IMG/VR virus record: IMGVR_UViG_3300032241_001112
Span: 1-27,207 of that record
DNA length: 27,207 bases
Source of the DNA: a virus
Reading direction: 5' to 3' (one strand)
The notes below the pieces were generated by a model. The model saw only the letters and a list, made by a program, of their open reading frames with translations, ran no database searches and was not told where the DNA came from. The stretch's first letter is position 1, and each line of letters starts with the position of its first letter. Positions 2,343 to 25,483 of the stretch are shown here, piece after piece. The position numbers and the translations under genes are program-made.

Positions 2343-5300
2343 TTATGCTGGGTTGCTGGGTGCCAGTCCCTGTAATATAAATTGCGCCTGCGGAGATGTG
2401 CTGTTTATTAAACCATCGCCTGTGGTAATAGAGTAAGATACAGTACTGACCTGTGCATTTACGTTCGATCCATTTATCCAAACCCAAGAATTTGCTCCTT
2501 GTCCTGTTGTTACAAATTGACCACCTGACACGCTGTCAGCCGATACAGTTAAAATATTTCCTAAGTAGGATAAATTGCCGCTGATATTGGCCGTTAATAG
2601 TTGCTGTGTCTGTAGAATATTGGCACTAACTCTGGCAGATATTCCCACAATAGGTTGTTCAATTGTATCTCCGGCATTGAAATTAACGTTGGCTGTTAGC
2701 GTTATAAACTGCTGTGTGCCGGCGGCAAATTGTACTAAATCAATTGCCCCGTCTGTTGCTGTTGTTAAATAGTTTCCAACTGTGTCGGACAACAGGTATA
2801 CATTGCTCATTAATGTTGTTGGATTTAGCCAGGTACTTAGGTGTACGTTAGCATTGGCTGTAGTTGTTGTTGGCAATAATTGGTTAACTGACGATTCTTG
2901 TACTTGACTTCCTGTCAGGTGTAGATTAGCTGCACCTGTACCATCTACTCCTCGACGTAGTTGTCCCAATCTATTATTGGCTAGGTCTACAGTCCAGTAG
3001 GTAATTTTTTCTCCGTTAATAAACACTATGCCAGGATGCAATGGATATCCATATGGATCTGGCATCATGAACGCTCTAGCATTTGTAACCTGTATATAAT
3101 CGTCTGTCAAGTGTAGATTGGCACTTAATGTTGATGTATTGGCTGCAAATACAGAGTAGTATTGTGGCCATAGACTGTAATTGGTCGAAGAAGCATTAGT
3201 GTTCATGTTATATACAATACGATATGCCACAGTATTGGTGCTAACCTGCGACACGTTTGATGATATATATGGAGCAGTATTAACTCTGGTGTATACTGTC
3301 ATGTTTAAGTTATCAAACATACGGCCTGGCACTAGTTCTTCAGGTGCAAAACTGCTGTAGGTGTCATAGTATGCACCACCATCAATGGTAATGTCAGATG
3401 GGTTAAGACCTTGACTTGTATCATTATTAAAATAAGTAGGACCTTGCACAATGCTGTCCAAGAATAAAGCACTGTTAGTATCATAGTATACAATAGATAA
3501 ATTAGTACCTAGTGTGATATTTCCCGTTAGGCTTGATCCTCCAGCAATCGATATGCTACCCGGTGTTACCTGCATGATAGTTACATTAGATGCTGTGTGA
3601 GTGTCATTATTAAAAATTGAAATTGCCAAGTTTGGCTTCAGTGAGTAATCAACAAAGTTAATTGCCGCTATGTTAGCACTGTACAACGTTGATGTATTTG
3701 CATAATAATAAAATACATTAGCAGTGATATTTGAAGTTGTTGCATTATAAGGAACACCTTGTATTAGTGTTCCAGGATACTCAACGCCCGACATCAATTG
3801 AGCCAAGTCAACTCCTGGTTGATTGGAACTAGGCTGATACATGGCCGTAATACGGTCTGCAGCTGTTGTAAAGCTATCATCTGTTATTAGATTAAATTGT
3901 GTATAATCAAATATATCATTAACAGCCACAGGATTTACTGTAGTTACTGTTCCGTTAATTATAATATTGCCGGCTCTTTTTACAAAGTTTCCGGTAACAT
4001 TTCCAACTGTGATTAGATTATTACTGCTTATACTAATAACGGTTGCGTTGGCATTGTTATTAAACTGAGTTACAAAGTCACCAACATTTGCCTTGATGTT
4101 GCCACTTAGTCTTAAACTTGATTTGCTGTAAATAATGCCACTGGCTGAATAACCTTTGCCTTGATATCGAACCCATTGTGATGATAAAACAGAATCGTAT
4201 GGGTCTACATCATAAGGATTTGACAAATCATCAAAATCACTGGTAAATGTATAGGTATCATTATGAGACCATGGTACAATATTACTTGTATAGGTAATGC
4301 GATCAAATTTTATTGTGGTATCAAATGAGCGTACCAAGTTATAACTATGATTTTCATATGAGGTGTAGGTGCTAAATGGTGTTGAATTACTTGAAATTGT
4401 ATAGTATGTTGGGAAAACTGCCAAGTTACCACCGGCCACAGACAACCATTGTCCGCCTAGGAAAGTACCAACTGTGTTCCAGAGATATATTTGCGTATTT
4501 GCAGTTGTAAGATACACTTCGCCGGATGCCCCTGACGTTGGCTGAGACACAATGTCGCCATTTTTAACTGAAGCATTTCCGTTAACCGTTAACACAGTAT
4601 TTGACACACCAGGTCTTACCTGTAGTGGCACACCATTATTATATAGATATCCACCTTCTTGGAATGTACCATTTACATTTACCAGATCAATATTTTTTAG
4701 TGTAATAATATGTCCATCGGAACTATCGTAAACTGTTCCGGCAGCTCCAGTGGTTGGTTGTGTAATAATGTCACCGGTTTTGACCAATGCCGGAGTGCTT
4801 AATACAATATCCAAAGTTGGAATACTCTTGACATAGTGTTGGTTAACCAAAATTGGATAGCCAACGGCGCCAGTTCCAGTACCATTTATGTGTAAAGTTG
4901 GGGTAGTTGTATATCCCGATCCAGGAGTAACAACATCAAATTTGGCAATTGATCCAGTGGCAAAATCTACGGTTGCCTGTATATTTGCACCAGACCCGCC
5001 ACCGCCCACAACAGTTACAGTTGGGGTAGTTGTATATCCACTGCCTGAATTAGATACAGTTACAGTTCCAATACCATATCCGTGATTGGCATACCATTCA
5101 GAATATTGTGGCAAGTTGGCTAATGCATACGTATCTGACGTTATAGTTCCATTTGGACTTCTGTATCGACCAACGTTACTAATGTAGGTGGCTGGCACAT
5201 CAAAGTCTGTCATGTCGCCTGTGTATGTGTCGTCACCTGTATAGTCTACTAGATATTCTCTAATACTGGTTCTATAGGGTTTAACTTCGTTAATATAATT

Positions 5301-8300
5301 TTCGTAATATGTTTGATTATCTTGTATGTAAGCAGGATATTGCGATAATTTTCTTAGTTGATGGAAAATTGTTATAAAACTGGTCTTAAATACCCAATCA
5401 ACAGATTGCTGTTCTGTTAAAATATAATTAATTAAAAAGAAAAATAACTTATTAAAATATATTTTTAGTGTGTCAATAAAAATATTATTTTTAATAGCAT
5501 CAAAGATAATACGAATTTCGTTGCTGGCAACTGTTTCTGTATATAAAGTTTCATTAAGTTGTAGTGTACCAGCTTCAATTCCTACTAAATTCCAGATTGT
5601 ACCATCCCAACGGTAAATGGAAAATTGACCATTACCACGATTAACCACTTTTGCAGTATCGTTGATAAACGGACTTAGAGAGACTAAATCAGAATATGTA
5701 GGTACTTGGAAGGTGACCTTAACTGTAGGATCGTAGTCACTGGCGTACCAATTGGCAAACGACCAGTAAGATGGTGTATAATAACTTTGTACTTGTATTG
5801 CTTGCCATTGACTACCAGTCCACTGGTATAAAGCCCAAAAATTATTTCGTGTTTCGTCCCGAGTTACCAGTACAGTATAACCACTGACAATAATTGCTGT
5901 ATCAACGTATGTTAACTCTAAATAAGAATTAACTGTAATATCGTAGTTGTCTGGGTTAGGCAAGGGATCTGAATCATATAGGCTAGTAATAATAAATTCT
6001 TCAACTATAGGATATTGTATTAGTATATCATTAATATATTGTACAAAATTCTCTAGTGCAGTTAATCTATTTAAGAATAGAGTTTGATTAGGATTTGTAC
6101 CCAGGCCTAAACTTGCCTGCATCGACAAAGATGGTGCTGGCACTGGATTACCCAAGGAATCTGCACCGGCTAAACTGTCAATCATTTTATTAACAATACG
6201 TTCAGGTATTAAACTACCAGAATTTCCTTCTTGTATTAATTGAAATTCGCTGTGTATAATATTTGTATTTTTAATTGTATCATAATCAGCGTGGAACACT
6301 GTGGTGTTGCCAGCGCCAATTAAATAATCAGCAACATTGTATAAACTAACAGTATCATCACGCAATACCGCTGCATAAGGAATACTCTGTGCAGTTGGGT
6401 GTGCTATAACATCTTGTATGGTGCTAATGCTGTTAACGTGCTTACTGTCTGTTTCTAAAGTTGTTTTATTAACAACCCAATAATAATAATGGCTTCGAAT
6501 AATTTTAGTTGCAGGATCTACATAACTTTCAAGAACAAACGCACTATTATCTGGATATAGTGCTTGACCATTTCCAGTATACTGTGCCGGAGGTACATCA
6601 CTTTGTACCCATTCTGCTACCTGTATGTTACTGCCCGGGAATGTGGCTCCCCAGTTACTAGAACGATAAGTTAAGTTTCCTTGTTCGTAGTCATAGTATC
6701 GAACCTGGCCAATATCCCACCAAGTCTTAGTAACCTGTGCTTGACCCCAATGATAATCAATGTTAAAAGATACATTAGGTACTCCTTCAATGACACCACC
6801 ATTATTGTATACTGCCGGATCGTATGCTGTAATGTAGTCTAGATCTTCTTGTGCGGCTCCCAGTACCTTACCTTTGGCTGGATCAATCCAATCAAAATTA
6901 GTTATTAATGTACTTGTAGTATTATTGTAGATATACATTCTAGTAATACTGTCAATGTCCACCTTAGGTGTTTCGCTACTGATAATATCCCAACCGACAT
7001 TGCCTGAGAAATTATGGTATGTGTAGTAGGTACCTGCATCAGGCACAGTAACTATTGACCCTGATATAGGATCAGTTGTCACATGATTGCTGTCGCCGGG
7101 GGCACCAACTAACAATACATTTCCGCCTAATGCTAAACTTGTACCAAACCCATCATTTGCAGATAAAGAATTGTTGTGTAACTGTTGAACCATTACATAT
7201 TGGTCCGGAGTTGAGGTAGATAACGAGCCTTCTACTAGACCGTATATGTATACCACACCAGAACCAGACGTACTATCTGCAAAGTCTGTAGCACTGTTAT
7301 CAAAATCCGTAACTCCGTCGTCAAAATCTGTTGGATTGTAGGTTGCACCTTTACTGGCACTGATAGCTATAGAACTAGAATCATCATTAGAAACAATCTG
7401 ACTGCCAAATTGGCTAACGTCGGCTGTGCCTGGATGTAAGAAGCTTTGTACATTGGCAAATGTGCTCAGTCCAAGACCAACAATGGCATTTCCTGATCCT
7501 GGAGTAATAATTAATTTTTCATATGGTACTATAATATTACTGGTTAAAGTTAATAGTCCATATGGTTGTGCAACAGCAGTAATGCCGGCAATATTAGCAG
7601 AATTAATATTGGCTGCAATAGATTGTAAATTACCAACTGTACTGCCAGGTGTATTAGCACCAAAGCTAACTTGTATTCCGTTGATATAAAAATTTGATCC
7701 AGCTGCTACTGTTGGTTCTGTAATGGTGCTGGTAATGGTTCCATAGTTAGCACCTTCGTTGACAAATCTATAAACAATACCACTGTAATACCCAGGTGCA
7801 CTGTAGCCGGGACTTGCAACATAAACGTCAGCATCGTTACCGGCAATAGTTGACACAACACCAAATGCTGCACCACTGGTTGGTGTCGGTGCTGTTAATT
7901 TTTCCAGTAATTGTATTTTATTAGTGTCAACAGTTACGATTGTACCGATGACTGGTGCATTATTAAATGATACACTGCTGCTGGTTAATGTAAAGTTCGA
8001 TGTTTGTACTATACCATTAACTGTAACCAATGCTGTACTTGAAGTAATAGGATACTGTGGATAGTATGTTGTACTTCCATTGGCTACAAAACTTTCGCGG
8101 CTACGATTAAACACATATACCGCGCCAGCAGACACAACATTACCAACAGTTTCGTATGGTGCACCAATTGTGGTCATAGTGCCATCTGATGTTGTAGTCA
8201 CTCCATGGCCAAAATGTGCAACTATTGCATTGCCTGAAGATACGTAATTGTTACCCAAGATTGTATTTGCCAGAGTATAATAACTAGAAGTATTGGCATG

Positions 8301-11300
8301 ATATACATAAACATTACCAACACCAGGAGCTCCAACATACAACCAAGTACCATCGGTACTGGCACTTATGCTATAACCAAATTGGTCGTTGTTATTTACA
8401 AATGGACTTGTTAAAGTTTGTTTTGGTGTAAATGATGCATTTCCGTCAAAGCTGTAGATATGTACGTTACCTGAGTCGGTACCGGGATTTCCTATATACA
8501 ATAAATTGTTGGCACTGGCTAGACTTGAGCCAAATTGTTTACCACCCGATTGCGGTCCAAGATTGCCGACCATGGTAAATGTATTACCGTTTGCAACATT
8601 AGATACAAATACAATAACGTTACCATTGTTTAAGTTTGGCATACCAGCAGCAGCAAATGAGGCATTGGGTGCTATAGTTGTAGTTGATCCAAATCCTGAG
8701 TTACTAATATAACTGTTAGCATCTAATTCCATACTGACATTGGTTAATACGTTGGTATTAGCTGTGGTCCATGGACTTGATTTATTGTATACTACCCATC
8801 CTCCGGTAATTTGATCGTAGTCTGACCATAGTTTGTCGCCATCTAACCAACCACCCAGAGGAGCGACAGTGGTTATGTCTGTAGAATTTTTTAATCTTGC
8901 GCTGTTTAATGTGTACAACGATCCAATGCCCAATACTTGTCCAGCAGATTTTAATGATGCCAAGTTATTAGATGTTAGTGTAACAGTAAAGTTAAGATTA
9001 TTGGTTATGTTGGTAACTTGATAAACACCATTGGTACGATTATCAAAATCGTTGATTACAACAAATGTACCAACAGTTAAATTATGTGGGGTAGCCGTTG
9101 TAACTACACCGGTGACATCTATGGCATAGGCCATACTCAGCACAGAAACATTTGTTTCAGTAACACGATATACATTCCAACTTGTAGTTATATTGTCTTT
9201 TGCGGCCCAAACTTTAGTACCAATGGTAATTTCGTCTAGGTATTGATTAAGTTCACCATAGTTGGCCATGTCAAATATTTGTATATCAATTTGATCTTTG
9301 TGTACATAGCCGGCAGTTAAAATATCGCCACCATAATAACTAGTATCATCACGGTTAGTATAAAGACTGGATCCTGCTGTATATTGATCACCTGTCAAGT
9401 ATAAATTTGCTGGGTACACACTGACAGTATTGTCTGGATTAACTTCATTGTTTGCCAATAAAGTAAATGTTACCGGATCACCGTTGTACTGTCCCTCGAC
9501 TAATTCTAATTCAATGTATTGATTATTGTGTAGAGCACCGTATTCGCCTACACGCAAGGCCCATTCTTCGTATAAATTAATATTACTGCTAATTCCATTG
9601 AAACCTGCAGCAGTAAATGCTGTTATAGAATTTATTGTACCTTTTTGTTTAATAAATCCTTGATAGAATTTAGCCTGTGTTTGTATGTCAAGGCCAAAGT
9701 CTGTTAAATATTGTCTTGGACGGAATCCAATTTCTGTTCCAACAAATCTACCAAAATCTCCTTGTAGTTCGGGATTGTCTAAGTCATTGAACTTTTGGAA
9801 CTTGGCAGCATTGTAACTGAAATTTGGTAACAAACCAGTTTGTATTTGGTTAATAGACAACTGTTGCCATTGTGTTGGATTAAATGTAGTTACTGCTGTT
9901 AGGTCTTTTGTGGCAGTATAATAAACATTTTTATATTTTACCAAAGATCCCAATGCATAATCTTTATTCGATTGCCATTCATCTACGTTAGGACCATTGT
10001 AAATAAAGCCCGGTGGATTTAGTGCGCCTGTCCATGCTCCTGTTTTTTGTCCAACTAATTTTAATCTATATTGTCTGTTACCCAATTCTGGAACGTATAT
10101 GACATCATTGTATTCTGTAACATTGTCAAATATTAATACGTGTTCATACTCAACTAAATTAAGAACAGCTAAAGCAATAGTTTGATTGCCGGTGGTTGTT
10201 AATGTAAAAATATTATCTGTTCTTGTAACTGTTAGATTATTATATTTGAGGAAATTAAATGCTGTGTCTAAAACTCTACTGGACATTGGTACATTCAAAA
10301 TTTGATCAACTACTCCGTAGGTTGATTGTATTGTTAAGTGCCCTAGAGTAGGACTTAATACCAACACACTGCCTGTTTGCCATCCCTGTTGAGTCCAAGA
10401 CAAAAATTCTTGTACGCTTAATTTGAAATCTCTTTGTGTTCCTAAGTCTTGATCAAAGTCGGCAAATACAAATCCACTGCCTACTAAAAATCTTTCGTAG
10501 CTGATAAGGAAATCAACTAGCTGTTGTTTATTGTTAAATTCATGCCCGTATGGAATAGTTACTTTATATGATTGATAATCCTGATAAACTATACCAACAT
10601 CGTTTAATACTGTAATGGCATAGTCATTGTTATTGGCAATACTAGGAATAATTGTAAAATAAGGATTGTTTGTATCATATCCGCTGACAGTATAACCGTT
10701 TTCACTTAGCTCAACAATGACCGCACTGTAGGCAATGGCTTTAGTTGGTGTTGATTTATAAAGTTGTATCTTATAATTCTCTGTAGGAATAACAATGCTA
10801 TTAGTTGTGCTACTTGGACTTGCCTGTTCAGCCTGTACTTCTAAAAACGAAGAGTCGGTGTAACCTGCCATTTTATATGCTAATTGTACCTGCACAGGTT
10901 TTAAGTACGATACAAGTTTTGTTGTAGGATCTATGCCTATACCAGTCAAATAGTCCGCTATCCAGTTTAAGTAGCCGGCTGTTCTACGATAAGTACCGTC
11001 CCCGTTTGGTTGTCCATTGATATTAATTGCTGCAGGAGTAATACGCTGTAGTGTATCTTTTAATACATATTGATCCAGTTGTTTGTTTTTATAATATCTT
11101 GATACATCTATTAATGTACCAAAAAAGTATGCGGGATTGGCCAATGCGATGGCTTCTTGTAAGGCGTAGGGAAAGTCGCTACTGCGTCTCCAGGCTGTTT
11201 CTACTGGGCCTTGTTGTCCTACTGCATAACTAGCGTTGGCTTGATTGCTATTAAAACTTTTAACTAAAAAACCCGATGGAGGTCTTAATACACCATTTGC

Positions 11301-14300
11301 ATCAACCGGAATCAAGTTTGGAAGACCTAATGAGCTGTTGCCTAATAGATTAGGACGAACAAATCTAGAATCTGTATAAGCAGAAGAATCACTGCCGTTC
11401 CAAATATATCCTGCAGCCACATCGGCCCATAATACTAAATTTCCACCTGTATAAGGTGCTGGACCATATTTTGTTTCCCACCAGCTGGGTTCTTCACTGA
11501 GTCCCAGCATTTCCCATGGTGCTATGTCTGGACGATCGGTATCATAAAAATATTTGTAAATAGCCCGCCATGTACCTTGAAGTTGTTCATTGTTGACTGT
11601 GTCAAAGAAATTTCCAAAATTCCAAGTAAACGGATCATCTGAAATAAAATAATTGTTTGCAGTAAAGTCAACTCGATTACTACCTACCCATTGTAAAAAA
11701 CTTCTTGTTAATAATTGAGTAAATTCTGCGTTAGAATAATCTGTAGATCTAAATTTTCCAGGAAGGAAGTTGTATATATTATTAACGTCGTCGTTATAAT
11801 TAACTTTAATATTATTATAGATACGTAATTCAAATTCTAATAATAGTTGATCTCTAAAATCGCCAAATGCTGGAGTAATTGATCCATCGTGTCCTTGAAT
11901 TACATTTATGTGATTTACATAAGAAGTATCTAAATAAATTTTAGGAGTAAATTTAGGATACAATCCTAGTTTGGTAGGAGTTTCTGGAACAAAGTTAGCA
12001 TCTGTATTACTGTACTCGTTGATAGTAATAACATCATCATAATTTAATGAAGTCTTAAAGGTTATACCGGCACGGTTGGTGTCAAATACATAATCTGTGC
12101 CAACCCGTAATTGTTGATTATTACGATAAACCAATACAGCACGATTACTCAATACTGTATTATCAAACACACTTGAAATTTCGTAATCGGTTTGTTCTGG
12201 GTTAATTACAGTATAGGTCAATGTAGTTTTTAATGCACCATAAGGTACCATGTCAGAATAATACCAAGGGAATGTATTATTTTTAACTTGGTTAATATTT
12301 TGTATAATTACATCCAATATACCTGGAATGTCATTGGTATCAATTGATTTTAAATTTGCAGCAGATTCTAAAATTTTATTCTTGAATCTGCTGTAATTGT
12401 GTCTTGCGTACTCTAATCCTTTGAGGAAATTGGTGTCAGGGTCAACTAAAAACAATTCACTGTACAGCACCGGGCTGGCATTTTGTACAATATTTCCGCC
12501 TTGTGCTTTAACCGGTTGATCTCTGAGATTATTTGCACCAATGGCTGGTCCAATAACCTTGGTACTGTTGGAAACTAAAGATACAACGTGATTACGTAGT
12601 TGTCCTAATGTTAGTGTAGTAAAGTTAACGTTTTCACTATTATAGTTTAAGTTATCTGGTACTTGATAAAAACCAATTCCACTGGAATTGTTACTGTAAA
12701 TTAATATGTCAAGTTGATCTCCAGTGACTAAACTAGAATCAGTTATCTGTACATAGTTGTTCTGCCCACTGGTAATTATTTTATATAACGAGTAGTCTAA
12801 TTCTGCAAAATTTTTATATGCTTTAATATAAGGAATAGTTGTTGAGGTAGCAGGCAATACATCAATTAGTACATAAGGATTTATACCATCGTATATACTG
12901 CTAATGACTTGATATTGTTTACTTTTTTCAACTACTGTTGTCCATGCATTTCTTATATTATAATTGTTTATATCAATATTTTGTTGTAGTGTACCAACGG
13001 TGTTTATATTAACAGTCGCAACAGTTCCGCTATTGTTTGTATAATTAACTGTATCTGTATCAAAATTGTTAACAAATTGTACATCGCCAATTTGAGTAAA
13101 TGTTCTGTAACTTAACGGAAATCCAAGTGTTTGGTCTTGTGACCCTGTGCCAACTTGATAAGAAAATACGGCTGTACCACCTACTGCTGTTCCTAAATTA
13201 TTTTTTGTTGTAGCAAATGTAGAACCAGGGTATACACCAGTATCTCCTATACTGACCCCATTCATATCAATAACATCAAACATTGGTGTTTGATTTATTG
13301 CGGTCTTTTGTTGTCCTTCGGCCCATTGGGTTCCATCAAACCAATACTCTTTGCCTTTGTTTGAGCCTTGAAGAACAATTAAATTATTATTAGCACTGAC
13401 CGCAGAGTCATTGGCCAATTCTAATGTAATAGCCGGTCTTTGATTAATAGAACTAAATCTAACAATAAAAATTTTATTTCTTACAGTAGGATCAAAATCA
13501 TTTGCAAAAATAACACGCAGTCCATCTTGTAAAATTACACCATCGAGCACAAAATAAGATTGTAGTTCAATTTGTTTACGTGCATCAGTGATACTAAAAT
13601 CAAAAATGTCAACAGGAGTTTTTGCTTTACGACCAAAGTTATATAATTGTAAATTGGCTTCAAACTCAATGATAGGACGATTGGCTCTTTGTGTTTGATT
13701 ATAAACAGCCACGGTTCCTAATGCTGTTGATGTTGCTGTAATAACATCAATGTGGAACCAACGATTGCTACGTGTCCAAGGATTCAAATCTTGACCAGCA
13801 CGATTAATGGTGATATAGTCTGGGCTATTAAGTCCATTAGCAGCATAAGATTCTGGTGTTTGAAAATTAGTTACAGGCAATAATTGTATAGATGTTCCCA
13901 CACCCTCAACGTAATAAGCGTTGCCAGCATAGGTATTTGGAACTGCACTATTATCAAATTGTACCGTTAACCCATTGGTAAACTCAATACCATTGGGACT
14001 GGTATATCCAGTTTTTCCAATGATGTCTTGATCAACTTTTAAGGTATTGTCGTTGATATCTACTAATGTAACAAGACCATTGTATCTAGAATCTACACCG
14101 TCTTGATAATACAGTGCTGTAGCCGACGCTGTCAGAGCCGGTACGGTAACATAATAATTATAACTTGGATTTATATAGAATGTGGCCTGAGAATTTGTTT
14201 GCCCAGCTATTACATACACACGTTGATTTGTTGTTATTGTAGTTATTGGAACAAGATTAACTATGTAATCGTTTTGCGTAGCCTGTAATTGTATTCTCCA

Positions 14301-15263
14301 GACACTACGCCAATTTGCGCTATCGGTTGTTACTCCATTGACAGTCCAAAACATTGGATCAATGTCAGAGTTTGTAAAAATTAATGTTTTGCCTTCTAGG
14401 TTAGTTACCACACCATCGAAGCTGAGATTGTTGGCCACAATAGAACTTAATAATTGTCCTTGTAGTTGGCTGTAGTGAGCAGTTACACCAAAGTCTACTG
14501 TGGTAATTGGCATTGACTCGTAATACTGTTGCGAGGTTTTTCCTGGAACTGTAAATGTTACAACACCAACATCTGTTCCATTGTTTGTTACACCAGCTAC
14601 TTCTCTACTGGATTGATTGTTGTAAGATAATCTACGACCCGATACACCCGGGTCCGACTGTATCCAGAATGGATATCCTGGTTGATTGACAATAAATTTA
14701 TACGTTCCACCATATGCTAAACGCAAATTAGGATTTTGTGCTACACCCGATCCAGTAAAATGATATGATCCAGTGCTGGGATCTCTTGTTACTGTATAGG
14801 TGTAAGATTGGTTAACCCCAGAACCATACACCGGTACAGCACCAGGTCCTGTAGGTAGCCAATAGTATTGATTAAAGTTTACAAATTTATCAAAATCAAA
14901 TAATCCATCGTAGCTGTATGTTTCTCCTGTGAACATTCTGCTCTGATTGTCTGTCAATGATCCACTGTAGCCGGCTTGATTTAATAGATCAATATAACTA
15001 CTAAAAAATTCTACGTCATTGGTTGTTGGGTTCTTAACTACAACACTGGGCTCCAATTGATAATTTTGTCTCAGTGCATCAGGCTCGGGTTGATAGTTAT
15101 CACCGTCTTTGTACATTGGAGCAAATTTACGTCCAACATAAGCATTAACTTTTCTTAGGTCGGGTGGTGTTACTAATTGATCTAGTGTGGCATTTAGAAA
15201 TTTCTGATTTGTGTCAGTTCTAAATACTTCAGGTAAAAAATTTATAGTTTTTATGGCTGCCAT
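2343..15263 (-). CDS. Giant multidomain virion structural (baseplate/tail) protein, 4306 residues
   Basis: A single uninterrupted frame starts 1 nt after the gp6 stop, so it is probably co-transcribed with gp6. It occupies the position of T4 gp7 (1032 residues), but I cannot show homology to gp7. Visible parts: an N-terminal segment (1-140, INFLPEVFRTDTN, NQYYWLP); an aromatic-rich block (about 1164-1290, many W/Y/F); a carbohydrate-binding-like segment (about 1755-1800, W..DYALGSLVKYKNVYYTA); six FG-GAP-like repeats (about 2210-2750, such as FGYSISASTDGTWLYVGAPG); a hydrophobic aromatic block (about 3244-3341, LKIYFNKLFFFLINYILTEQ, then YINEVKPYRTSIREY); two SGYTTTPT repeats (about 3394-3458); several GDxxxQPxxG repeats; and a C-terminal part with LGQLRRGVDGTGA (about 4080). 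No signal peptide or protease motif is seen. It is probably a peripheral baseplate or fibre-anchoring component. The structural role is well supported by context; any specific assignment is inference. Confidence 0.8.
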   Translation of the reverse strand: MAAIKTINFLPEVFRTDTNQKFLNATLDQLVTPPDLRKVNAYVGRKFAPMYKDGDNYQPEPDALRQNYQLEPSVVVKNPTTNDVEFFSSYIDLLNQAGYSGSLTDNQSRMFTGETYSYDGLFDFDKFVNFNQYYWLPTGPGAVPVYGSGVNQSYTYTVTRDPSTGSYHFTGSGVAQNPNLRLAYGGTYKFIVNQPGYPFWIQSDPGVSGRRLSYNNQSSREVAGVTNNGTDVGVVTFTVPGKTSQQYYESMPITTVDFGVTAHYSQLQGQLLSSIVANNLSFDGVVTNLEGKTLIFTNSDIDPMFWTVNGVTTDSANWRSVWRIQLQATQNDYIVNLVPITTITTNQRVYVIAGQTNSQATFYINPSYNYYVTVPALTASATALYYQDGVDSRYNGLVTLVDINDNTLKVDQDIIGKTGYTSPNGIEFTNGLTVQFDNSAVPNTYAGNAYYVEGVGTSIQLLPVTNFQTPESYAANGLNSPDYITINRAGQDLNPWTRSNRWFHIDVITATSTALGTVAVYNQTQRANRPIIEFEANLQLYNFGRKAKTPVDIFDFSITDARKQIELQSYFVLDGVILQDGLRVIFANDFDPTVRNKIFIVRFSSINQRPAITLELANDSAVSANNNLIVLQGSNKGKEYWFDGTQWAEGQQKTAINQTPMFDVIDMNGVSIGDTGVYPGSTFATTKNNLGTAVGGTAVFSYQVGTGSQDQTLGFPLSYRTFTQIGDVQFVNNFDTDTVNYTNNSGTVATVNINTVGTLQQNIDINNYNIRNAWTTVVEKSKQYQVISSIYDGINPYVLIDVLPATSTTIPYIKAYKNFAELDYSLYKIITSGQNNYVQITDSSLVTGDQLDILIYSNNSSGIGFYQVPDNLNYNSENVNFTTLTLGQLRNHVVSLVSNSTKVIGPAIGANNLRDQPVKAQGGNIVQNASPVLYSELFLVDPDTNFLKGLEYARHNYSRFKNKILESAANLKSIDTNDIPGILDVIIQNINQVKNNTFPWYYSDMVPYGALKTTLTYTVINPEQTDYEISSVFDNTVLSNRAVLVYRNNQQLRVGTDYVFDTNRAGITFKTSLNYDDVITINEYSNTDANFVPETPTKLGLYPKFTPKIYLDTSYVNHINVIQGHDGSITPAFGDFRDQLLLEFELRIYNNIKVNYNDDVNNIYNFLPGKFRSTDYSNAEFTQLLTRSFLQWVGSNRVDFTANNYFISDDPFTWNFGNFFDTVNNEQLQGTWRAIYKYFYDTDRPDIAPWEMLGLSEEPSWWETKYGPAPYTGGNLVLWADVAAGYIWNGSDSSAYTDSRFVRPNLLGNSSLGLPNLIPVDANGVLRPPSGFLVKSFNSNQANASYAVGQQGPVETAWRRSSDFPYALQEAIALANPAYFFGTLIDVSRYYKNKQLDQYVLKDTLQRITPAAININGQPNGDGTYRRTAGYLNWIADYLTGIGIDPTTKLVSYLKPVQVQLAYKMAGYTDSSFLEVQAEQASPSSTTNSIVIPTENYKIQLYKSTPTKAIAYSAVIVELSENGYTVSGYDTNNPYFTIIPSIANNNDYAITVLNDVGIVYQDYQSYKVTIPYGHEFNNKQQLVDFLISYERFLVGSGFVFADFDQDLGTQRDFKLSVQEFLSWTQQGWQTGSVLVLSPTLGHLTIQSTYGVVDQILNVPMSSRVLDTAFNFLKYNNLTVTRTDNIFTLTTTGNQTIALAVLNLVEYEHVLIFDNVTEYNDVIYVPELGNRQYRLKLVGQKTGAWTGALNPPGFIYNGPNVDEWQSNKDYALGSLVKYKNVYYTATKDLTAVTTFNPTQWQQLSINQIQTGLLPNFSYNAAKFQKFNDLDNPELQGDFGRFVGTEIGFRPRQYLTDFGLDIQTQAKFYQGFIKQKGTINSITAFTAAGFNGISSNINLYEEWALRVGEYGALHNNQYIELELVEGQYNGDPVTFTLLANNEVNPDNTVSVYPANLYLTGDQYTAGSSLYTNRDDTSYYGGDILTAGYVHKDQIDIQIFDMANYGELNQYLDEITIGTKVWAAKDNITTSWNVYRVTETNVSVLSMAYAIDVTGVVTTATPHNLTVGTFVVINDFDNRTNGVYQVTNITNNLNFTVTLTSNNLASLKSAGQVLGIGSLYTLNSARLKNSTDITTVAPLGGWLDGDKLWSDYDQITGGWVVYNKSSPWTTANTNVLTNVSMELDANSYISNSGFGSTTTIAPNASFAAAGMPNLNNGNVIVFVSNVANGNTFTMVGNLGPQSGGKQFGSSLASANNLLYIGNPGTDSGNVHIYSFDGNASFTPKQTLTSPFVNNNDQFGYSISASTDGTWLYVGAPGVGNVYVYHANTSSYYTLANTILGNNYVSSGNAIVAHFGHGVTTTSDGTMTTIGAPYETVGNVVSAGAVYVFNRSRESFVANGSTTYYPQYPITSSTALVTVNGIVQTSNFTLTSSSVSFNNAPVIGTIVTVDTNKIQLLEKLTAPTPTSGAAFGVVSTIAGNDADVYVASPGYSAPGYYSGIVYRFVNEGANYGTITSTITEPTVAAGSNFYINGIQVSFGANTPGSTVGNLQSIAANINSANIAGITAVAQPYGLLTLTSNIIVPYEKLIITPGSGNAIVGLGLSTFANVQSFLHPGTADVSQFGSQIVSNDDSSSIAISASKGATYNPTDFDDGVTDFDNSATDFADSTSGSGVVYIYGLVEGSLSTSTPDQYVMVQQLHNNSLSANDGFGTSLALGGNVLLVGAPGDSNHVTTDPISGSIVTVPDAGTYYTYHNFSGNVGWDIISSETPKVDIDSITRMYIYNNTTSTLITNFDWIDPAKGKVLGAAQEDLDYITAYDPAVYNNGGVIEGVPNVSFNIDYHWGQAQVTKTWWDIGQVRYYDYEQGNLTYRSSNWGATFPGSNIQVAEWVQSDVPPAQYTGNGQALYPDNSAFVLESYVDPATKIIRSHYYYWVVNKTTLETDSKHVNSISTIQDVIAHPTAQSIPYAAVLRDDTVSLYNVADYLIGAGNTTVFHADYDTIKNTNIIHSEFQLIQEGNSGSLIPERIVNKMIDSLAGADSLGNPVPAPSLSMQASLGLGTNPNQTLFLNRLTALENFVQYINDILIQYPIVEEFIITSLYDSDPLPNPDNYDITVNSYLELTYVDTAIIVSGYTVLVTRDETRNNFWALYQWTGSQWQAIQVQSYYTPSYWSFANWYASDYDPTVKVTFQVPTYSDLVSLSPFINDTAKVVNRGNGQFSIYRWDGTIWNLVGIEAGTLQLNETLYTETVASNEIRIIFDAIKNNIFIDTLKIYFNKLFFFLINYILTEQQSVDWVFKTSFITIFHQLRKLSQYPAYIQDNQTYYENYINEVKPYRTSIREYLVDYTGDDTYTGDMTDFDVPATYISNVGRYRSPNGTITSDTYALANLPQYSEWYANHGYGIGTVTVSNSGSGYTTTPTVTVVGGGGSGANIQATVDFATGSIAKFDVVTPGSGYTTTPTLHINGTGTGAVGYPILVNQHYVKSIPTLDIVLSTPALVKTGDIITQPTTGAAGTVYDSSDGHIITLKNIDLVNVNGTFQEGGYLYNNGVPLQVRPGVSNTVLTVNGNASVKNGDIVSQPTSGASGEVYLTTANTQIYLWNTVGTFLGGQWLSVAGGNLAVFPTYYTISSNSTPFSTYTSYENHSYNLVRSFDTTIKFDRITYTSNIVPWSHNDTYTFTSDFDDLSNPYDVDPYDSVLSSQWVRYQGKGYSASGIIYSKSSLRLSGNIKANVGDFVTQFNNNANATVISISSNNLITVGNVTGNFVKRAGNIIINGTVTTVNPVAVNDIFDYTQFNLITDDSFTTAADRITAMYQPSSNQPGVDLAQLMSGVEYPGTLIQGVPYNATTSNITANVFYYYANTSTLYSANIAAINFVDYSLKPNLAISIFNNDTHTASNVTIMQVTPGSISIAGGSSLTGNITLGTNLSIVYYDTNSALFLDSIVQGPTYFNNDTSQGLNPSDITIDGGAYYDTYSSFAPEELVPGRMFDNLNMTVYTRVNTAPYISSNVSQVSTNTVAYRIVYNMNTNASSTNYSLWPQYYSVFAANTSTLSANLHLTDDYIQVTNARAFMMPDPYGYPLHPGIVFINGEKITYWTVDLANNRLGQLRRGVDGTGAANLHLTGSQVQESSVNQLLPTTTTANANVHLSTWLNPTTLMSNVYLLSDTVGNYLTTATDGAIDLVQFAAGTQQFITLTANVNFNAGDTIEQPIVGISARVSANILQTQQLLTANISGNLSYLGNILTVSADSVSGGQFVTTGQGANSWVWINGSNVNAQVSTVSYSITTGDGLINSTSPQAQFILQGLAPSNPA
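4897..5039. repeat. Perfect 20-bp direct repeat marking a 41-residue tandem protein repeat
   Basis: The same 20 bases occur at 4897-4916 and 5020-5039, 123 bp apart, exactly 41 codons. In the giant protein they encode the SGYTTTPT cores of two adjacent units, each followed by a Gly-rich turn (VVGGGGSGA and INGTGTGA). The in-frame spacing indicates a duplicated protein module rather than a DNA-level element. Confidence 0.8.
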
Positions 15264-15264
15264 A

Positions 15265-18200
15265 TTATACCGTTATGTTTGTTCCAGCTAGTGTTTGGTT
15301 AATTTGTGCGGCAGTAATAGCACTGATAATCTGTACATTTTCTGCTGTTGCGGAACTGATAAGTATCTCATTTGGATTGGCATTAATTTGCATTAGTCCG
15401 CCAAATGCAATATCAGTGTTAGTAGGTACAATAATGATGCTGGCAACATTAGGTGCCAGTGTATTATGTAAGTAAGTTGCTAGTTCGCTAAAATAAAAAG
15501 TTTCACCAAAATTCCAATTTGTTGTGTTAAAATATGTATTGATAGCTGCCACTGTGGCACTGATAACATCATTATCGCTGATGGCTAAATTGGGATTTTT
15601 AACAACCTTAAACGTACACTGAAATGCCGGGTCTGCTTTTCTACCAAATAATGGTTTATAAACACCTGCGTTGTAAACAATAGTATCGCTTAGTGCTTTG
15701 TAGTTTTCTAAACTATTTGGTCCAGAGCCATATGATAATTTAAGTTGATCATTGGTAGGAGGACTAGGTTTTTGAATTTTTCCTGTTGTGTCCTGTATCC
15801 AGGCAATATAATTGTTAGCATAAGAACTGGTTAATATATACAAATCCATAATGTTATTTGGACTAGGATCTATTCTACGATCGTTTGGACTATTATGTTT
15901 ATATTGAAATTGTAAATTTTGGCGACCAATTTTTGCCACATATGATGTTGTTAATGTTAGTGCTCTAACATTATTTGCATCGATTGTCAGTAGATAAAAC
16001 TTATTTTCAGCAGTGGCATAAAACAGTTGGCCGTTAGTAAATAAATTTTGGTTGGCTAAAATACTGGCTTGAGTAGAATAATAGGCAACAACTGTATTAT
16101 TATCCATTGGCTGTGTGGTTATAAAGCTACCACTGGTATCATTCATGTCAGACACTTGCTTAAAGAACACATATTTTTGTCCGTTAAGATTATCAGCAGG
16201 ATTAATAATATTATTAAACAAATCTGGATCGTTAGGAATACCAGAGTTATTGTTGTCCGGGAATGTAACCAATACCTGTGTATTATCTATATAACCATCG
16301 GGTGCTATAACATTGTTATAAATGTACCACTGTTGTGTTTGTCCCAATGGTGCCATACTGTCAGGGTATGTATTTGTACCAAGTACATTGACCTGATCTA
16401 TAACAGTTGATCCTGTTTTACTGTCAAATACTTTAACATTAGGATCAAAGTAAAAACGTGTCTGCTCGTTACTTAAAAATAGGTACTGTAAACTTCTATT
16501 GACTAGATTATACATAACACCATTATAGGTAAATGCTATGGTCCAAGAACTGTCTGAGTTCGGAAGTTGAGTATTGCCGGTATTGGCCAAACTAAAGTCG
16601 CCGAGACTTAAAAACTCAGGAGCAATGATAGACCAACTTTGACTTGGCACATCATATCTGATGCCAAAGTTTTTGTAACTTTTTATTAAATTAATCATTG
16701 AGTTAACAAATGAAGAATTAGTAAAATCATTCTTAAACACAGGAATAATACTATCAAGTACAGCGCCGGTAGGAATAACCTGGCTCAATTGAATTGTGGT
16801 ACTGGCCTGTACATTCACAACAGAAGCGTAAATGTATGATTTATCGTGTTCGTTTACCGGAGTGCCTGTTATGATAATATTTTGTGCGTTAAAATATTGC
16901 CCAGGCCCGGCATTAAATCTTAGCAATGATCCTGTGGTAATATACTTTAAGGTACTGTTGGTTATATACCCGACTTGTAATACATTACTGATACCACCGG
17001 TTAAATTACCAGTGCTGGTTCCTGAATCTGATTTAGTTTGAAGCCAATTACAAACGCCAGCGGGTTGATATCTAGCGTAGTTAGCATAGTAAAATTGTTT
17101 TACTTCGGTACTACGTAAAATAGGAAGTACCGTATTGTAAATAACATTGTTAATATCGTTAATAGAATTAAAAGTAAATGTCTGACTTGGGTTTGTCTGT
17201 GATTGATATAGATAACCATCATCACAATATATATTTGTGCTAGAATATTTTCCAGTTACATCAAGTACGTCAAGATATCTACTGATACCAGAACTGGTAC
17301 GATTGACTGCTTTAACTTTAATAATATCTGAAAAATTAGTAAAAGGAAAAAGATTGTAGTCTTCTCCAGTGATCATACGATTCTGTGTATAGTATTGCTG
17401 TGGAGCTTTTTGACGAATACTATCAATTAATTCTCTGCTGGATGCATTGTTTACTGTATAATGTAAACTTGCTGTGATAGTTAATGTTTCTACTGTGTTA
17501 TTACGACTAACATAGGTCAGTGGTATTGTGACATTTTGCATTTCGTCGGGAGTAATTTTATAGTTTAATCCGTTACTGACACGATAATATAACTTAAAAT
17601 TATCTTTTGGAATATTTGCAAATGCTCCATCACCAAATACCAAATCAATTTGGTCATTGCTACGAGTGTTGATTTGATATAAATTGCGATTTACGCTTTG
17701 ATTGTAAATGACATTAAGCCCAGCCACGGCCGGCACACTGGCCCATACAGAACTTGGGTTACCGCCATTGTCTAGTTGATATAACCAAACGTCGGTATTA
17801 TTAATATTGTTATAGTTGATACTTACGGTACGATTAGGCAAACTTTCTTGTAAGTTTAACGCTATGTTTTGTAATTGTCCTTGCTTAAAATAAACAAAGT
17901 ATCCAGTGTTGATACTGCCATTTCCTAAATTATCATTTTGATGTAGAATATTAAATTTGCCGTTGGGTGCGGGACTTACTTCGTAGATGTAAGACTGGCC
18001 AACACTGGTAGCACTAACAGCTTCAAAGTAGGTATTAGCACCGGCTATGGACGCACTAAACCCGTATTGTGGAACAACACCAGGAACTAGGTTAACAGAA
18101 TACTCACTGGTCATAATACCATTGATATTTTGTGTATTGCCAGGATTGCCAATTACTTGATTATTGATTAATGCCGCGTTAAATATGGTTGTAAACTGTT

Positions 18201-18660
18201 CTTGCCAGTCTTCGTTTGTGGTATCGTTCCAGGAAATTAATAAATTAGATAAATTTAAACCATTGCTGTCAAATACATTCTCTGTTGTATTGACGCTGTC
18301 AATCTTTAAGAAGCCGCTGGCTGGAGTGTTACGTGAAGCATTATAGTTAATTAATCTTGCCAGCCGTAGTATGCTGTCGCGGCGTTCGGCTGTGTCAAAA
18401 AAGTTTTCGCGAGCGTTTAAGTCTGTACGAAATGCTAGACTTTGTCCAAGAAAAGCAATTAAATCTATTAGAGCTACATATTCGCTGGACTCGGTAAAGT
18501 CGTTAAAATCTTCTGGATAGTAACTACGCAAATAATCTATCATTGATTTGCGTATTGTTTCAAAGTCATAGCTTTGGAAATCGGCATTTTGGAAACTCTG
18601 ATACAGGGTTGTCCAGTCTTGATTAACTAATAAATTGGTTTGACGTGTGGTAATAGCCAT
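15265..18660 (-). CDS. gp6: Baseplate wedge protein gp6 (baseplate J-like)
   Basis: This 1131-residue protein is the T4 gp6-type wedge subunit, which joins neighbouring wedges into the inner baseplate ring. The N-terminal 115 residues have the family pattern (QDWTTLYQSF, YDFETIRKSMIDYLRSYYPE, FRTDLNARENFFDTAERRDS). The middle has baseplate-J features: VFGDGAFANIPKDNFKLYYR near residue 335-355 and SSRELIDSIRQKAPQ followed by MITGEDYNLFP near 404-436. The C-terminal part near 1045-1075 has FYFSELATYLHNTLAP, as in baseplate-J C-termini. It is much longer than T4 gp6 (660 residues); the extra length lies in the beta-rich region after residue about 450. The ATG at 18660 is preceded by AAGGG (18671-18675) and a late-promoter motif. 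It follows gp25, the usual T4 order. Confidence 0.9.
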   Translation of the reverse strand: MAITTRQTNLLVNQDWTTLYQSFQNADFQSYDFETIRKSMIDYLRSYYPEDFNDFTESSEYVALIDLIAFLGQSLAFRTDLNARENFFDTAERRDSILRLARLINYNASRNTPASGFLKIDSVNTTENVFDSNGLNLSNLLISWNDTTNEDWQEQFTTIFNAALINNQVIGNPGNTQNINGIMTSEYSVNLVPGVVPQYGFSASIAGANTYFEAVSATSVGQSYIYEVSPAPNGKFNILHQNDNLGNGSINTGYFVYFKQGQLQNIALNLQESLPNRTVSINYNNINNTDVWLYQLDNGGNPSSVWASVPAVAGLNVIYNQSVNRNLYQINTRSNDQIDLVFGDGAFANIPKDNFKLYYRVSNGLNYKITPDEMQNVTIPLTYVSRNNTVETLTITASLHYTVNNASSRELIDSIRQKAPQQYYTQNRMITGEDYNLFPFTNFSDIIKVKAVNRTSSGISRYLDVLDVTGKYSSTNIYCDDGYLYQSQTNPSQTFTFNSINDINNVIYNTVLPILRSTEVKQFYYANYARYQPAGVCNWLQTKSDSGTSTGNLTGGISNVLQVGYITNSTLKYITTGSLLRFNAGPGQYFNAQNIIITGTPVNEHDKSYIYASVVNVQASTTIQLSQVIPTGAVLDSIIPVFKNDFTNSSFVNSMINLIKSYKNFGIRYDVPSQSWSIIAPEFLSLGDFSLANTGNTQLPNSDSSWTIAFTYNGVMYNLVNRSLQYLFLSNEQTRFYFDPNVKVFDSKTGSTVIDQVNVLGTNTYPDSMAPLGQTQQWYIYNNVIAPDGYIDNTQVLVTFPDNNNSGIPNDPDLFNNIINPADNLNGQKYVFFKQVSDMNDTSGSFITTQPMDNNTVVAYYSTQASILANQNLFTNGQLFYATAENKFYLLTIDANNVRALTLTTSYVAKIGRQNLQFQYKHNSPNDRRIDPSPNNIMDLYILTSSYANNYIAWIQDTTGKIQKPSPPTNDQLKLSYGSGPNSLENYKALSDTIVYNAGVYKPLFGRKADPAFQCTFKVVKNPNLAISDNDVISATVAAINTYFNTTNWNFGETFYFSELATYLHNTLAPNVASIIIVPTNTDIAFGGLMQINANPNEILISSATAENVQIISAITAAQINQTLAGTNITV

Positions 18661-18718: not shown

Positions 18719-19096
18719 TTAGATATTAGTGGTCAAATTTTGACTTTGATTGTCAAATTGCAAACTTAAATTAGTTGCTTGATTAGTTTGTACAAATAAC
18801 AGGTCTATGTATACTTGTATTCCGTTATTATACTCGTTAATTGTAACATTTTGTAGTTGTACACGAGGATCATAGCCGACAATTTTCTTAACATCTTCAA
18901 CAATCACTTGACTTACATAATCTGTCATCGGTTCAAATAACATGCTCCAAATAACAGTACCAAAATCTGGTTGCATGAGTTTTTCGCCTTGACGAATATT
19001 AAAGTGATTAACCAAATCTTGTTTAACCAGCTCAATGTCCGAGAGACGAAACTTTTTGTTTCTGTTAATGGTACTAAATCCGTTATATAGTGTCAT
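18719..19096 (-). CDS. gp25: Baseplate wedge protein gp25
   Basis: This 125-residue protein belongs to the gp25/GpW-gp25 lysozyme-like wedge family, close in length to T4 gp25 (132). In contractile injection systems gp25 binds the gp6 and gp53 core and helps trigger sheath contraction. The family signature is at residues 37-56: GEKLMQPDFG, then IW and LFEP. The N-terminus (NRNKKFRLSDIELVKQDLVN) and the C-terminal beta strands with NNGIQVYIDLLFV also fit. The start is 12 nt after the gp5 stop and has TAGGTT upstream. It sits between gp5 and gp6 as in many T4-like phages, probably on the same late transcript as gp5. Confidence 0.93.
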   Translation of the reverse strand: MTLYNGFSTINRNKKFRLSDIELVKQDLVNHFNIRQGEKLMQPDFGTVIWSMLFEPMTDYVSQVIVEDVKKIVGYDPRVQLQNVTINEYNNGIQVYIDLLFVQTNQATNLSLQFDNQSQNLTTNI

Positions 19097-19108
19097 AATG
19101 TATTTAAC

Positions 19109-22100
19109 CTATTTTGGACTCCAGGCAGCTAACTGTATGTGTACACGGTCTGGATGTGTAAAGGTTCCGCCCCAGCGCAGACCATATGTACCCAATGTTA
19201 TTGTTTTGTTAATTAACTCAGCTTGTGCACCAGAGTCGATGGCTACACCTGATCCGTGACTGTCTGGGTGTGCTGGATTTCCCGGTGTTGGGGTAGTCAA
19301 TCGCCCAAATCTTGCAGTATTTACAGTTGGATTTGTATTAATATCGCCACCGGCCTGTTTCCAAGCGTCATACATGGCCTGTTGATACTCTGGTCCGCGA
19401 TAAGCACTGCATACCGTTACTTTTTGTCCAGTTAATGTCTTAAACGCCTGCGCCATTTGTAAGAAAGCGTTTTGGAATGCTGTTCCTGTTTGTTGGAAAG
19501 CTGCTAGTGTACCCGACCCCGATCCAGTGAAACTTAATACAGCGGCCGGATCTATGCCGGTTAGATTAGTACCATCGGGTGGTTGTCCGGCATCTGCCGG
19601 ACTAGGCAATGCATTAACTGCCAGCACATCTATGGCATAACGACCGTGATTAAAGTATTCTTCTGGGCTACCAGCATTGCCCACAACCGGAGGTGGTGTG
19701 TCTACAAAACCTTGCTTGCGCCATTGTGTGGCTAACTCTGCACTACGATACTTATGAGCAACAAACAGCATGCCAGCGGCCGTGCATATATCATCTGATG
19801 GTACTATACCACCATTGGCACCCAGGGCTGCATAGTTGTCTACAAATTCGCTGAATTGTAGTGCATCTTGTATTTGACTGTTACTGGTAAATGCTGACTG
19901 ACTGGTTATACTATCTTTATTTGTCCAGCTTTCGCTGTTGCCCAATACACCCGACACAGTATATTGATCAATTGCATCTGGTTTAATATATCCGGCACTG
20001 GCAAGATAGTAGGGATCAACTTGATATTTGCCGATTAACGGTGCAACAACTTTAGTATAATCACTGGCACTTTCAAAGAATCCCAATTCGGCACACATGG
20101 CACGAGCCATATCGGCTGTAAAACTTGGGCTACCGGAACCAATGCCATTGGGCGGAGTATATGTTTCTGGTTTATTTAGATTAGTCTGTGGACAAGTACC
20201 GCTGATAGATTTTCCTGCGGCCTGCGTTATGCCAATATCTTGTCCGGCTACACTACCAGCACCAGAGTTTACCGGATTTCCAGACCCGTCAGTCAATCCA
20301 ATTCCACTGCCGGTTGTTACCTGTCCAGGTTGTGGTGCACCGGCATTGGCCAATGCTTGTCTAACAATGTCTATTTTACCTGCGGCAACTGCGCCAACAC
20401 TGGCACAGGTAATACTGCCGTCTGGACCACGTAGTCCTCTATTCTGTTGCGCCACATTACTATTGGCTGCAGCAATAACATAATTGTCTGGTTGACCAAC
20501 TGCGGCCGGCCAGAATACACACAAATACAGATCTTGCAATTTAGGATTTGGACATTTTTTAGTAAACTTAAAATAGTTAAAATATTTTAATACCCAGTCC
20601 ATTTGTGTGACACGGTCCAATTGTGCCAATGCTTGTGTAGTGGTGCCCAGTCCTGTGGCTGTTGCCGGCATAAACTGTATGAGACCTGTGGCGCCAATGC
20701 TGTTTACAATACCTGGATCGTAAGTTGCTGCAGATTCGTTGTACATAAATGCCAACAAATCTATATAATTTGCATTTAATTTTCCAGCAACTTCTTTAAC
20801 CTTGTCAAGGAATGCTGTATCTGTGGTCCACGGTGCTGATCCATTTGCTGTTTTACCAAAATTGCGTAGTGTACCCAGATCAAGTTTGTTGCCATTGGGT
20901 TCTGGTAGTGTATATGTTGTTGGAACCGATCCTCCACCAACTTTAACTTCGCAAGTCCTAGATGGCAACGATGGAGTTGGAGGCGTAGCAGCCGGAGAAC
21001 GAGTATAAGGCTCATGATGTGGTAATGTCGTAACTATACTGCTAATTTGTCCTGCACTGGCTTTCCATAACTTGGTAGCACCATCGTAACCGGCGTCCTC
21101 AAATTGTTTTAACTGTGGCGAAATATCAACTTTTTTAACAGTATCATTATCTCCGGCAGAGCTATTAAGATCTATAGTAGATCCTGCCACAGTAATTGCA
21201 CCAGTGGTGCCTACCTTAAGCGTAGCAGCTCCCAGCGTCATATCGTTGCCTGTGCCTATCCACGTTTTACTGGCACCATACAATAATGTTGTGTCGGTGC
21301 TACTTATCAGTATTTGTGCTGATGTTTGCTGTATGCTGGTTGCAGCATTAAAATTAATTGACGAGCCGGAATCAATATTAACATTGGCATCTGAATAAAG
21401 ATTCAAGTCTCCTTGTGATCGTAGACTAAAAGATCCAGCATTGTAAATATTCATTGTGCCGTCTTGCCTCATTTCAATCCAATTGGTTCCAGTAGAATTA
21501 ATAATATACAGAATATTTTCTGTATCGTTCATTAAAATTTGGTGCCCACCGGCGCTGCGTATACGTACAAGATTATCAACGCCAGAGCTGTCGCCGTCGT
21601 CCATTACAAAACTGTGCCCGCCTTTACGAGCCGTTACTTCGTAGTCTTTGGCATTGATAGACCCGTCGGCTAACTTAGCAGAATATTGCGGATCATCGGC
21701 TGGATCGTTTCCATAGGCACGACCCGGTGTACTAATACCAAATACATGACTGGGGCTTTCGCGTTGACTATTGGAACTTATTGCGCCTCGTACAGGATCT
21801 TTATCCAGTCCCTGTTGGAATAATATCTTAGACTGCCACTCGTGTATGGGTTTTGGATTATTGTAGAAATTTGGTGTATAGGCATCGTCATTGTTTTCGT
21901 TAAATTCTACCACTGGTAAAGTTTGTCCATCCGTTAAACTACCAGCAACTTCTTGTCCGGCTGTTTCTTTGTCTACCTTATTACCGCCAGCTAGGGCAGG
22001 TACCATATAATGGCTTAGTGTGGGGTTAACACAGGCAAACCAGTAACCACGATCTGGATCCCCGTTGACAAAAGTACACAATACTTGATTACCTATATCT

Positions 22101-22399: not shown

Positions 22400-22422
22400 T
22401 TTTTAAGATCTTTATATTTTAC

Positions 22423-25177: not shown

Positions 25178-25483
25178 TTAGATTCCTAAGTCTGCGGTAA
25201 GCGTGGCCTTATTTGGAACAAAAATAGTTACGCCGGCATAAAAGTCCAACAATGGATCCTCTAATACATTGGGATTGCGAGCGCGAAATACCCACCATAG
25301 CCCACTGTCTCCGTATAAGTCATAGGCCAGCATGTCGGGGCGGTATTGATATACAGTGTTAATTACGTAAGGAACATCATCAGGTTTTTTGGTAATAGGT
25401 CTATAATTTAAGATATCCATAAATCGACCAAAACTTGGTGTACTATAATAAGGACTGGTTTTTTTATAAGTAACGTTGGTCAT
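25178..25483 (-). CDS. gp53: Baseplate wedge protein gp53
   Basis: This 101-residue protein matches the core of T4 gp53, a wedge subunit that clamps the gp6-gp7-gp25 core and carries a LysM-like domain. The signature is at residues 45-66: YQYRPDMLAYDLYG followed by DSGLWWVF, then NPNVLEDPLLDFYAG and a final IFVPN. The N-terminus has YYSTPSFGRFMDILNYRPI. It is about half the length of T4 gp53 (196), so it may be a minimal version holding little beyond the LysM-like core. The ATG lies 1 nt after the tube cap stop, with AGCAGGA inside the end of that gene, so the two are probably translationally coupled. Confidence 0.88.
   Translation of the reverse strand: MTNVTYKKTSPYYSTPSFGRFMDILNYRPITKKPDDVPYVINTVYQYRPDMLAYDLYGDSGLWWVFRARNPNVLEDPLLDFYAGVTIFVPNKATLTADLGI

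Follow-up and report, generated by a model that had tools for sequence, protein, structure and literature searches.

A predicted integrin-type FG-GAP propeller built into a giant baseplate-associated protein marks a clade of uncultured phages

Both propellers on phage baseplates and FG-GAP propellers in phages are already known. In the jumbo myophage phiKZ, gp131C (PDB 4GBF) is a propeller of seven blades described as peripheral on the baseplate, and the receptor-binding protein (RBP) Gp45 of Staphylococcus phage phi11 contains a five-bladed propeller with a putative N-acetylglucosamine cavity (PMC4901313). Vibrio phage nt-1 encodes an annotated FG-GAP repeat protein (VPFG_00309), cyanophage S-TIM5 a virion structural protein of the same fold (gp054) and Atu_ph07 a 'hemagglutinin' with an FG-GAP-type propeller, each as a separate gene. 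Here we analysed the IMG/VR virus record IMGVR_UViG_3300032241_001112, a stretch of 27,207 bases (the window), in which a propeller of this type lies inside a giant baseplate-associated structural protein of 4306 amino acids (aa) encoded on the minus strand (2343-15263), as are all genes and domains of the window described below.

The original prediction had placed an integrin-like propeller of six FG-GAP units at 7014-8636. All six units exist, their FG pairs falling at residues 2244, 2295, 2351, 2467, 2619 and 2706, and their coordinates convert correctly, but the propeller has seven blades; blade 1 (8541-8702) lies beyond that interval, and the FG-GAP_2 domain, including two inserted domains, covers residues ~2188-2757 (6993-8702). 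PF14312 (FG-GAP_2) matched the whole giant protein with E=1.2e-10 (41.9-46.3 bits, gathering cut-off 23 bits) and 63 of 66 homologous regions collected from the window and IMG/VR, the best at E=9.5e-32. The profile check proposed with the original prediction thus succeeded with PF14312, but PF01839 gave no match in the window and only four matches among the 66 regions at E<=0.01. A blade hidden Markov model (HMM) found seven blades in the window protein, seven in 50 of the 66 regions and 6 or 8 in another 14; as this model was initially trained on five compact relatives and then re-estimated on the same sequences, the blade count is partly circular. The PF14312 result is independent of it. After shuffling, the 66 regions together gave 4 blade matches; the blade repeats are far above chance. 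A profile of the 66 regions, built from sequence only, matched integrin alpha chains, among them alpha-4 (E=1.8e-11).

Blade 1 (residues 2188-2241) is degenerate, with FG at residue 2191 in the sequence FGSTTTIAPNASFAAAGMPNLNNGNVIVF; it scored 11 bits with the blade HMM and has four strands in the structural model described below. Blade 2 (residues 2242-2291, 8391-8540) and blade 3 (FGYSISASTDGTWLYVGAPG; residues 2292-2347, 8223-8390) scored 43 and 55 bits, respectively. As foreseen, blades are split by insertions, namely in the loops between strands 3 and 4 (3-4 loops) of blade 4 (residues 2348-2460, 7884-8222, 36 bits; interruption seen in the DSSP assignment of the model) and blade 5 (residues 2464-2612, 7428-7874, 24 bits). 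The blade 4 insertion (residues 2396-2440, 7944-8078) is small and all-beta, with strands at 293-314 of the model, while that of blade 5 (residues 2503-2598, 7470-7757) is alpha/beta, modelled as a helix and strands, and Flagellin_IN-like; PF07196 matched 3 of the 66 regions, at best with E=2.1e-4. Blade 6 (residues 2616-2698, 7170-7418) is the weakest of the seven at 7 bits, and blade 7 (FGTSLALGGNVLLVGAPG; residues 2703-2757, 6993-7157; 40 bits) contains the best PF14312 stretch. The most conserved propeller residues are structural Gly, Pro, Trp and Tyr, together with an Asp/Thr-rich 2-3 loop in blade 6 (TDFDDGVTDFDNSATDFAD; residues 2639-2668, 7260-7349), in which D2648 is kept in 95%, T2652 in 92%, D2655 in 97% and T2659 in 91% of the 66 sequences. 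This loop, with the pattern FDxxxTxFDxxxTxFxD, ranks with the best-conserved propeller segments in these relatives and possibly binds metal.

Residues 2120-2810 were modelled with AlphaFold2 using the 66 sequences, giving a predicted local distance difference test score (pLDDT) of 90.4 and a predicted template modelling score of 0.89. In agreement with the original prediction, the modelled fold is of integrin type, seven four-stranded blades closing into a ring, and the top PDB matches in Foldseek were integrin alpha chains (E 2.3e-11). Normalised by a 446-aa integrin chain, the template modelling (TM) score was <=0.59, a value lowered by the phage insertions. In a second model, built for the compact relative L072 with 1,190 context residues (pLDDT 85.9), the first Foldseek match was again an integrin alpha chain (E 1.1e-11); this model also matched seven-bladed WD40 rings, with target-normalised TM scores of 0.70-0.75, in keeping with a ring closed by seven blades. 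The likeness to integrins that had been claimed holds for fold and repeat type but does not extend to calcium binding. A regular-expression search found no DxDxDG-type Ca2+ loops in the blades of the 66 regions, and its 4 matches correspond in sequence to the flanking hairpin, not to blades. We therefore speak of an integrin-type propeller, not of an integrin.

The length of the propeller varies among relatives. Compact forms of ~410 aa without inserts occur in L072, L043, L054, L055 and L086 (the blade 4 insertion is absent from L072, L043, L054 and L086), and the longest forms reach ~1,500 aa. The 3-4 loops of blades 3, 4 and 5 carry the extra domains, as does that of blade 2 in L019-L021, all on one face of the disc; the conserved 2-3 loop of blade 6 lies on the opposite face. 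The blade 2 insertion of L019, L020 and L021 comprises ~80-100 aa with a dockerin-like calcium loop (ADVNNSGTVSPLDALAYNQW). Its assignment to Dockerin_1 was rejected, as the match (E=0.037) fell under the Pfam cut-off.

The body of the giant protein is assigned to PHROG 10938 (E~0, 1049.5 bits), based on a profile match across the body and on its baseplate gene context, so that the predicted location of the propeller in a giant baseplate-associated protein is also borne out. Its N-terminal 2,099 residues matched 60 isolate phage records at 24-30% identity, including PA5oct, RaK2, 121Q, Munch, Atu_ph07, Phosso and SCTP-2. Since the record of the PA5oct orthologue, gp355, carries a note of electrospray ionization tandem mass spectrometry (ESI-MS/MS), the body is a virion protein in that phage. 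The gene occupies the position that gene 7 holds in the T4 gene order. Homology to T4 gp7 was rejected, with hhalign profile-profile E-values of 0.62 and 0.18 and a probability <1%; 'gp7-like' is therefore a positional label only. Searching the PDB with the whole giant protein (phmmer) gave no matches, integrins being reached by profiles only, and the core profile gave only marginal matches of chitin-binding type. Just before the propeller, residues ~1760-1800 (~9864-9986) resemble a carbohydrate-binding module 5/12; among 11 family members, 5 matched PF02839, and the core profile's marginal matches were to chitin-active enzymes. The window protein itself gave no significant PF02839 match in this region.

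A conserved Trp-rich hairpin of the protein body is split into two halves by the propeller, which is inserted in frame. The N-terminal half (GWLDGDKLWSDYDQITGGWVVYNK; residues 2139-2162, 8778-8849) contains W2146, W2156 and V2158, conserved in 95, 98 and 97% of sequences, and the C-terminal half (residues 2758-2802, 6858-6992), which reads W2758...VDIDSITRMYIYNN...DWIDPAKGKVLG with the motif W2758...IDPAKGK, contains W2758 (100%), P2795 (98%) and G2798 (97%). This C-terminal half is also kept by isolates that have no propeller. In relatives the propeller has been lost and replaced. L047, a member of the same clade, keeps the hairpin and both flanks with only 19 residues between them in the alignment, a clean empty site; its giant-protein frame is uninterrupted over 3,512 residues, and PF14312 was found nowhere else in the 17 kb contig. 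In L092, a YHYH-type domain (PF14240, E=3e-29; L092:6552-8423) occupies the site. None of nine sampled isolates outside the clade had FG-GAP repeats at this position; between the flanks, PA5oct and the RaK2-like group have 166-177 aa and Vibrio 2.275 has 236 aa, and the interval reaches 474 aa in SCTP-2 and ~1,100 aa in both Atu_ph07 and Phosso. Other, unrelated insertions occur elsewhere in the giant-protein family.

Scanning IMG/VR with the family alignment yielded at least 596 confirmed loci, of which the best 80 were kept, favouring relatives of the window. In a maximum-likelihood tree of core residues 900-1900, computed with a quick method and with some outgroup rows on long branches, the propeller occurs in a single clade only, which has 100% support in the Shimodaira-Hasegawa-like approximate likelihood ratio test (SH-aLRT). 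Among the sampled relatives, 65 of the 67 rows of this clade carry it, and the two exceptions, L047 and L092, are nested within. Three changes suffice to explain this history, most simply one gain and two losses. The propeller thus marks one well-supported clade of uncultured phages. Seven compact blades were also found in a marine contig from a metagenome-assembled genome binned as Porticoccaceae (L119), and no propeller blades in L121. In 14 longer records, PF14312 matched only within the giant protein. Searching isolate phages by tblastn gave no match with the window propeller and, with a compact relative as query, only gp108 of Sinorhizobium phage Phosso. This ~3,700-aa 'hypothetical protein' (L111:7680-18199) has >35 FG-GAP blade matches (PF14312 E=1.7e-173), corresponding to about five tandem propellers.

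What the propeller does can be approached from its distribution. As it is kept by nearly all sampled close relatives and missing in the sampled isolates, it is probably a surface-contact module, and its being dispensable in L047 and swapped in L092 suggests surface exposure rather than a role in core assembly. We give about even chances to the reading that it is a fixed, outward-facing contact module of the baseplate protein that binds the host surface; this reading is favoured because the module can be lost or replaced, is disc-shaped and has baseplate precedents in phi11 Gp45 and phiKZ gp131C (PMC4901313). The giant baseplate-associated protein would display the closed seven-bladed FG-GAP_2 propeller, each copy forming a rigid disc with the extra domains on its 3-4-loop face and the Asp/Thr-rich 2-3 loop on the other. 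During landing, the disc would probably bind a common host-surface component such as a glycan, while finer specificity would come from gene-encoded fibres. The original prediction had likewise suggested that a propeller on the baseplate rim could bind host surface ligands or fibres. The computations show the fold, the number of blades, where the module is inserted, how it is distributed over the tree and that it has been lost and replaced; we infer the outward orientation, the host-surface binding and the presence of one copy per wedge.

Several observations weigh against host-surface contact. Typical receptor-binding tips are hypervariable, unlike this propeller. Its divergence is concordant with that of the core (Spearman 0.60, with 0 of 300 permutations as high), and it evolves only somewhat faster, being 58% identical at 65-75% core identity and 71% identical at 75-85%; compared domain by domain, it resembles the remaining protein and is slower than the C-terminus. 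The divergence comparisons revealed no cassette swapping or hypervariability of the propeller. This slow, concordant evolution argues against the propeller as the main fast-changing host-range determinant. Further candidate adhesion genes may be present next to the giant gene (1-2308), and FG-GAP propellers can serve purely as platforms for protein-protein docking. The idea of a hypervariable or cassette-swapped host-range trait was dropped as unsupported by the divergence comparisons.

A serious rival, possible though we hold it with some reserve, is that the propeller docks another baseplate component, such as a tail fibre or a gp9/gp10/gp11-like part, internally and does not touch the host. 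Most seven-bladed propellers act as protein-protein scaffolds, and the best Foldseek matches include the WD40 scaffolds mentioned above. Its retention in 65 of 67 clade members, its co-divergence with the protein core and the strong conservation of the blade framework and the blade 6 Asp/Thr loop would all suit a dock. However, an indispensable dock is hard to fit with L047, where the gene is otherwise kept and only the propeller is cleanly missing, or with the unrelated YHYH domain at the site in L092. A bolder version of host contact, in which, throughout a large clade of uncultured phages, the fixed integrin-like propeller in the baseplate body, rather than on a fibre, makes the primary contact and possibly signals directly to the contracting baseplate, seems doubtful to us. 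We regard it as unlikely that the propeller serves as a neutral spacer or as a decoration that adds size, having been gained once and inherited since: its loss in L047 and the unrelated insertions elsewhere in the family would agree with this, but the seven blades stay intact and free of stop codons while propeller identity falls to ~25%, and conserved positions persist within it. Least probable is an enzyme (hydrolase, lyase or lactonase) trimming host surface polymers, an activity in line with the discussion of phiKZ gp131C as a possible cell-degrading enzyme (PMC4901313) and with weak matches to Lactonase (PF10282) and DUF1513 in 2-3 of the 66 members, since these matches reflect general propeller folds and no conserved catalytic signature was found among the 66 sequences.

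The gene order on the minus strand of the window is 290-aa structural protein, gp53-like, 916-aa structural protein, gp5-like hub, gp25-like, gp6-like and the giant protein, and the order 53-5-25-6-giant is common to the window and its orthologues. The gp53-like (25178-25483; PHROG 7145, E=4.3e-25), gp25-like (18719-19096; PHROG 43, E=2.2e-19) and gp6-like (15265-18660; PHROG 10646, E=2.4e-283) proteins are baseplate wedge proteins. The gp5-like baseplate hub with lytic domains (19109-22399; PHROG 13211, E=1.9e-35; PF04717) has an SLT-type transglycosylase region at residues ~526-671 and a C-terminal VanY-like peptidase/endolysin region at residues ~972-1093; two wall-cutting activities in one protein are possible, with Pfam matches under the curated cut-offs. 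The G+C content across the hub gene (19000-23000) is 0.43-0.45, compared with ~0.35 in neighbouring genes, and may reflect recent acquisition. Next to the giant gene, an open reading frame (ORF) that is open at the window end (2-1246) is very rich in glycine runs (GGGGGG, GAGG), like glycine-rich phage tail adhesins, and may encode a receptor-binding protein. Another ORF (1250-2308, 352 aa) has an N-terminus like phage fibre proteins; PHROG and Pfam gave no match for it. Scans of the window for tRNAs and Rfam families found none.

A literature search found no paper joining FG-GAP, phage and baseplate, with subscription journals and preprints outside its coverage. Compared with the integrin alpha propellers (PDB 3v4p, alpha-4; 1tye/3nid, alpha-IIb; 3k6s, alpha-X), the phage propeller shares the FG-GAP repeat type and the seven-bladed fold, but is only ~12-16% identical, is split by 3-4 loop domains and is embedded in a baseplate protein; it is flanked by baseplate-protein sequence and not by thigh or calf domains and a transmembrane helix. 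phiKZ gp131C is a different protein and was absent among the 50 Foldseek matches listed. phi11 RBP Gp45 likewise places a beta-propeller in a baseplate receptor-binding device, but has five blades, is homotrimeric and belongs to a siphophage. The PHROG 10938 proteins of PA5oct, RaK2, 121Q, Munch and Atu_ph07 share body, gene order and insertion-site flanks with the window protein but have no propeller at the site, and the phage FG-GAP proteins encoded by separate genes have ~400 aa (except Phosso gp108), none lying within a giant baseplate protein. The novelty seems to lie in a propeller that forms part of a giant baseplate-associated protein and is conserved through a large uncultured clade. 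An integrin-type adhesion fold has become a fixed component of the tail baseplate in these uncultured phages, a widespread group. A natural 'knock-out' (L047) and a natural swap (L092) at one site allow the role of baseplate-borne propellers, a question since phiKZ gp131C, to be tested by comparing close relatives that have or lack the module.

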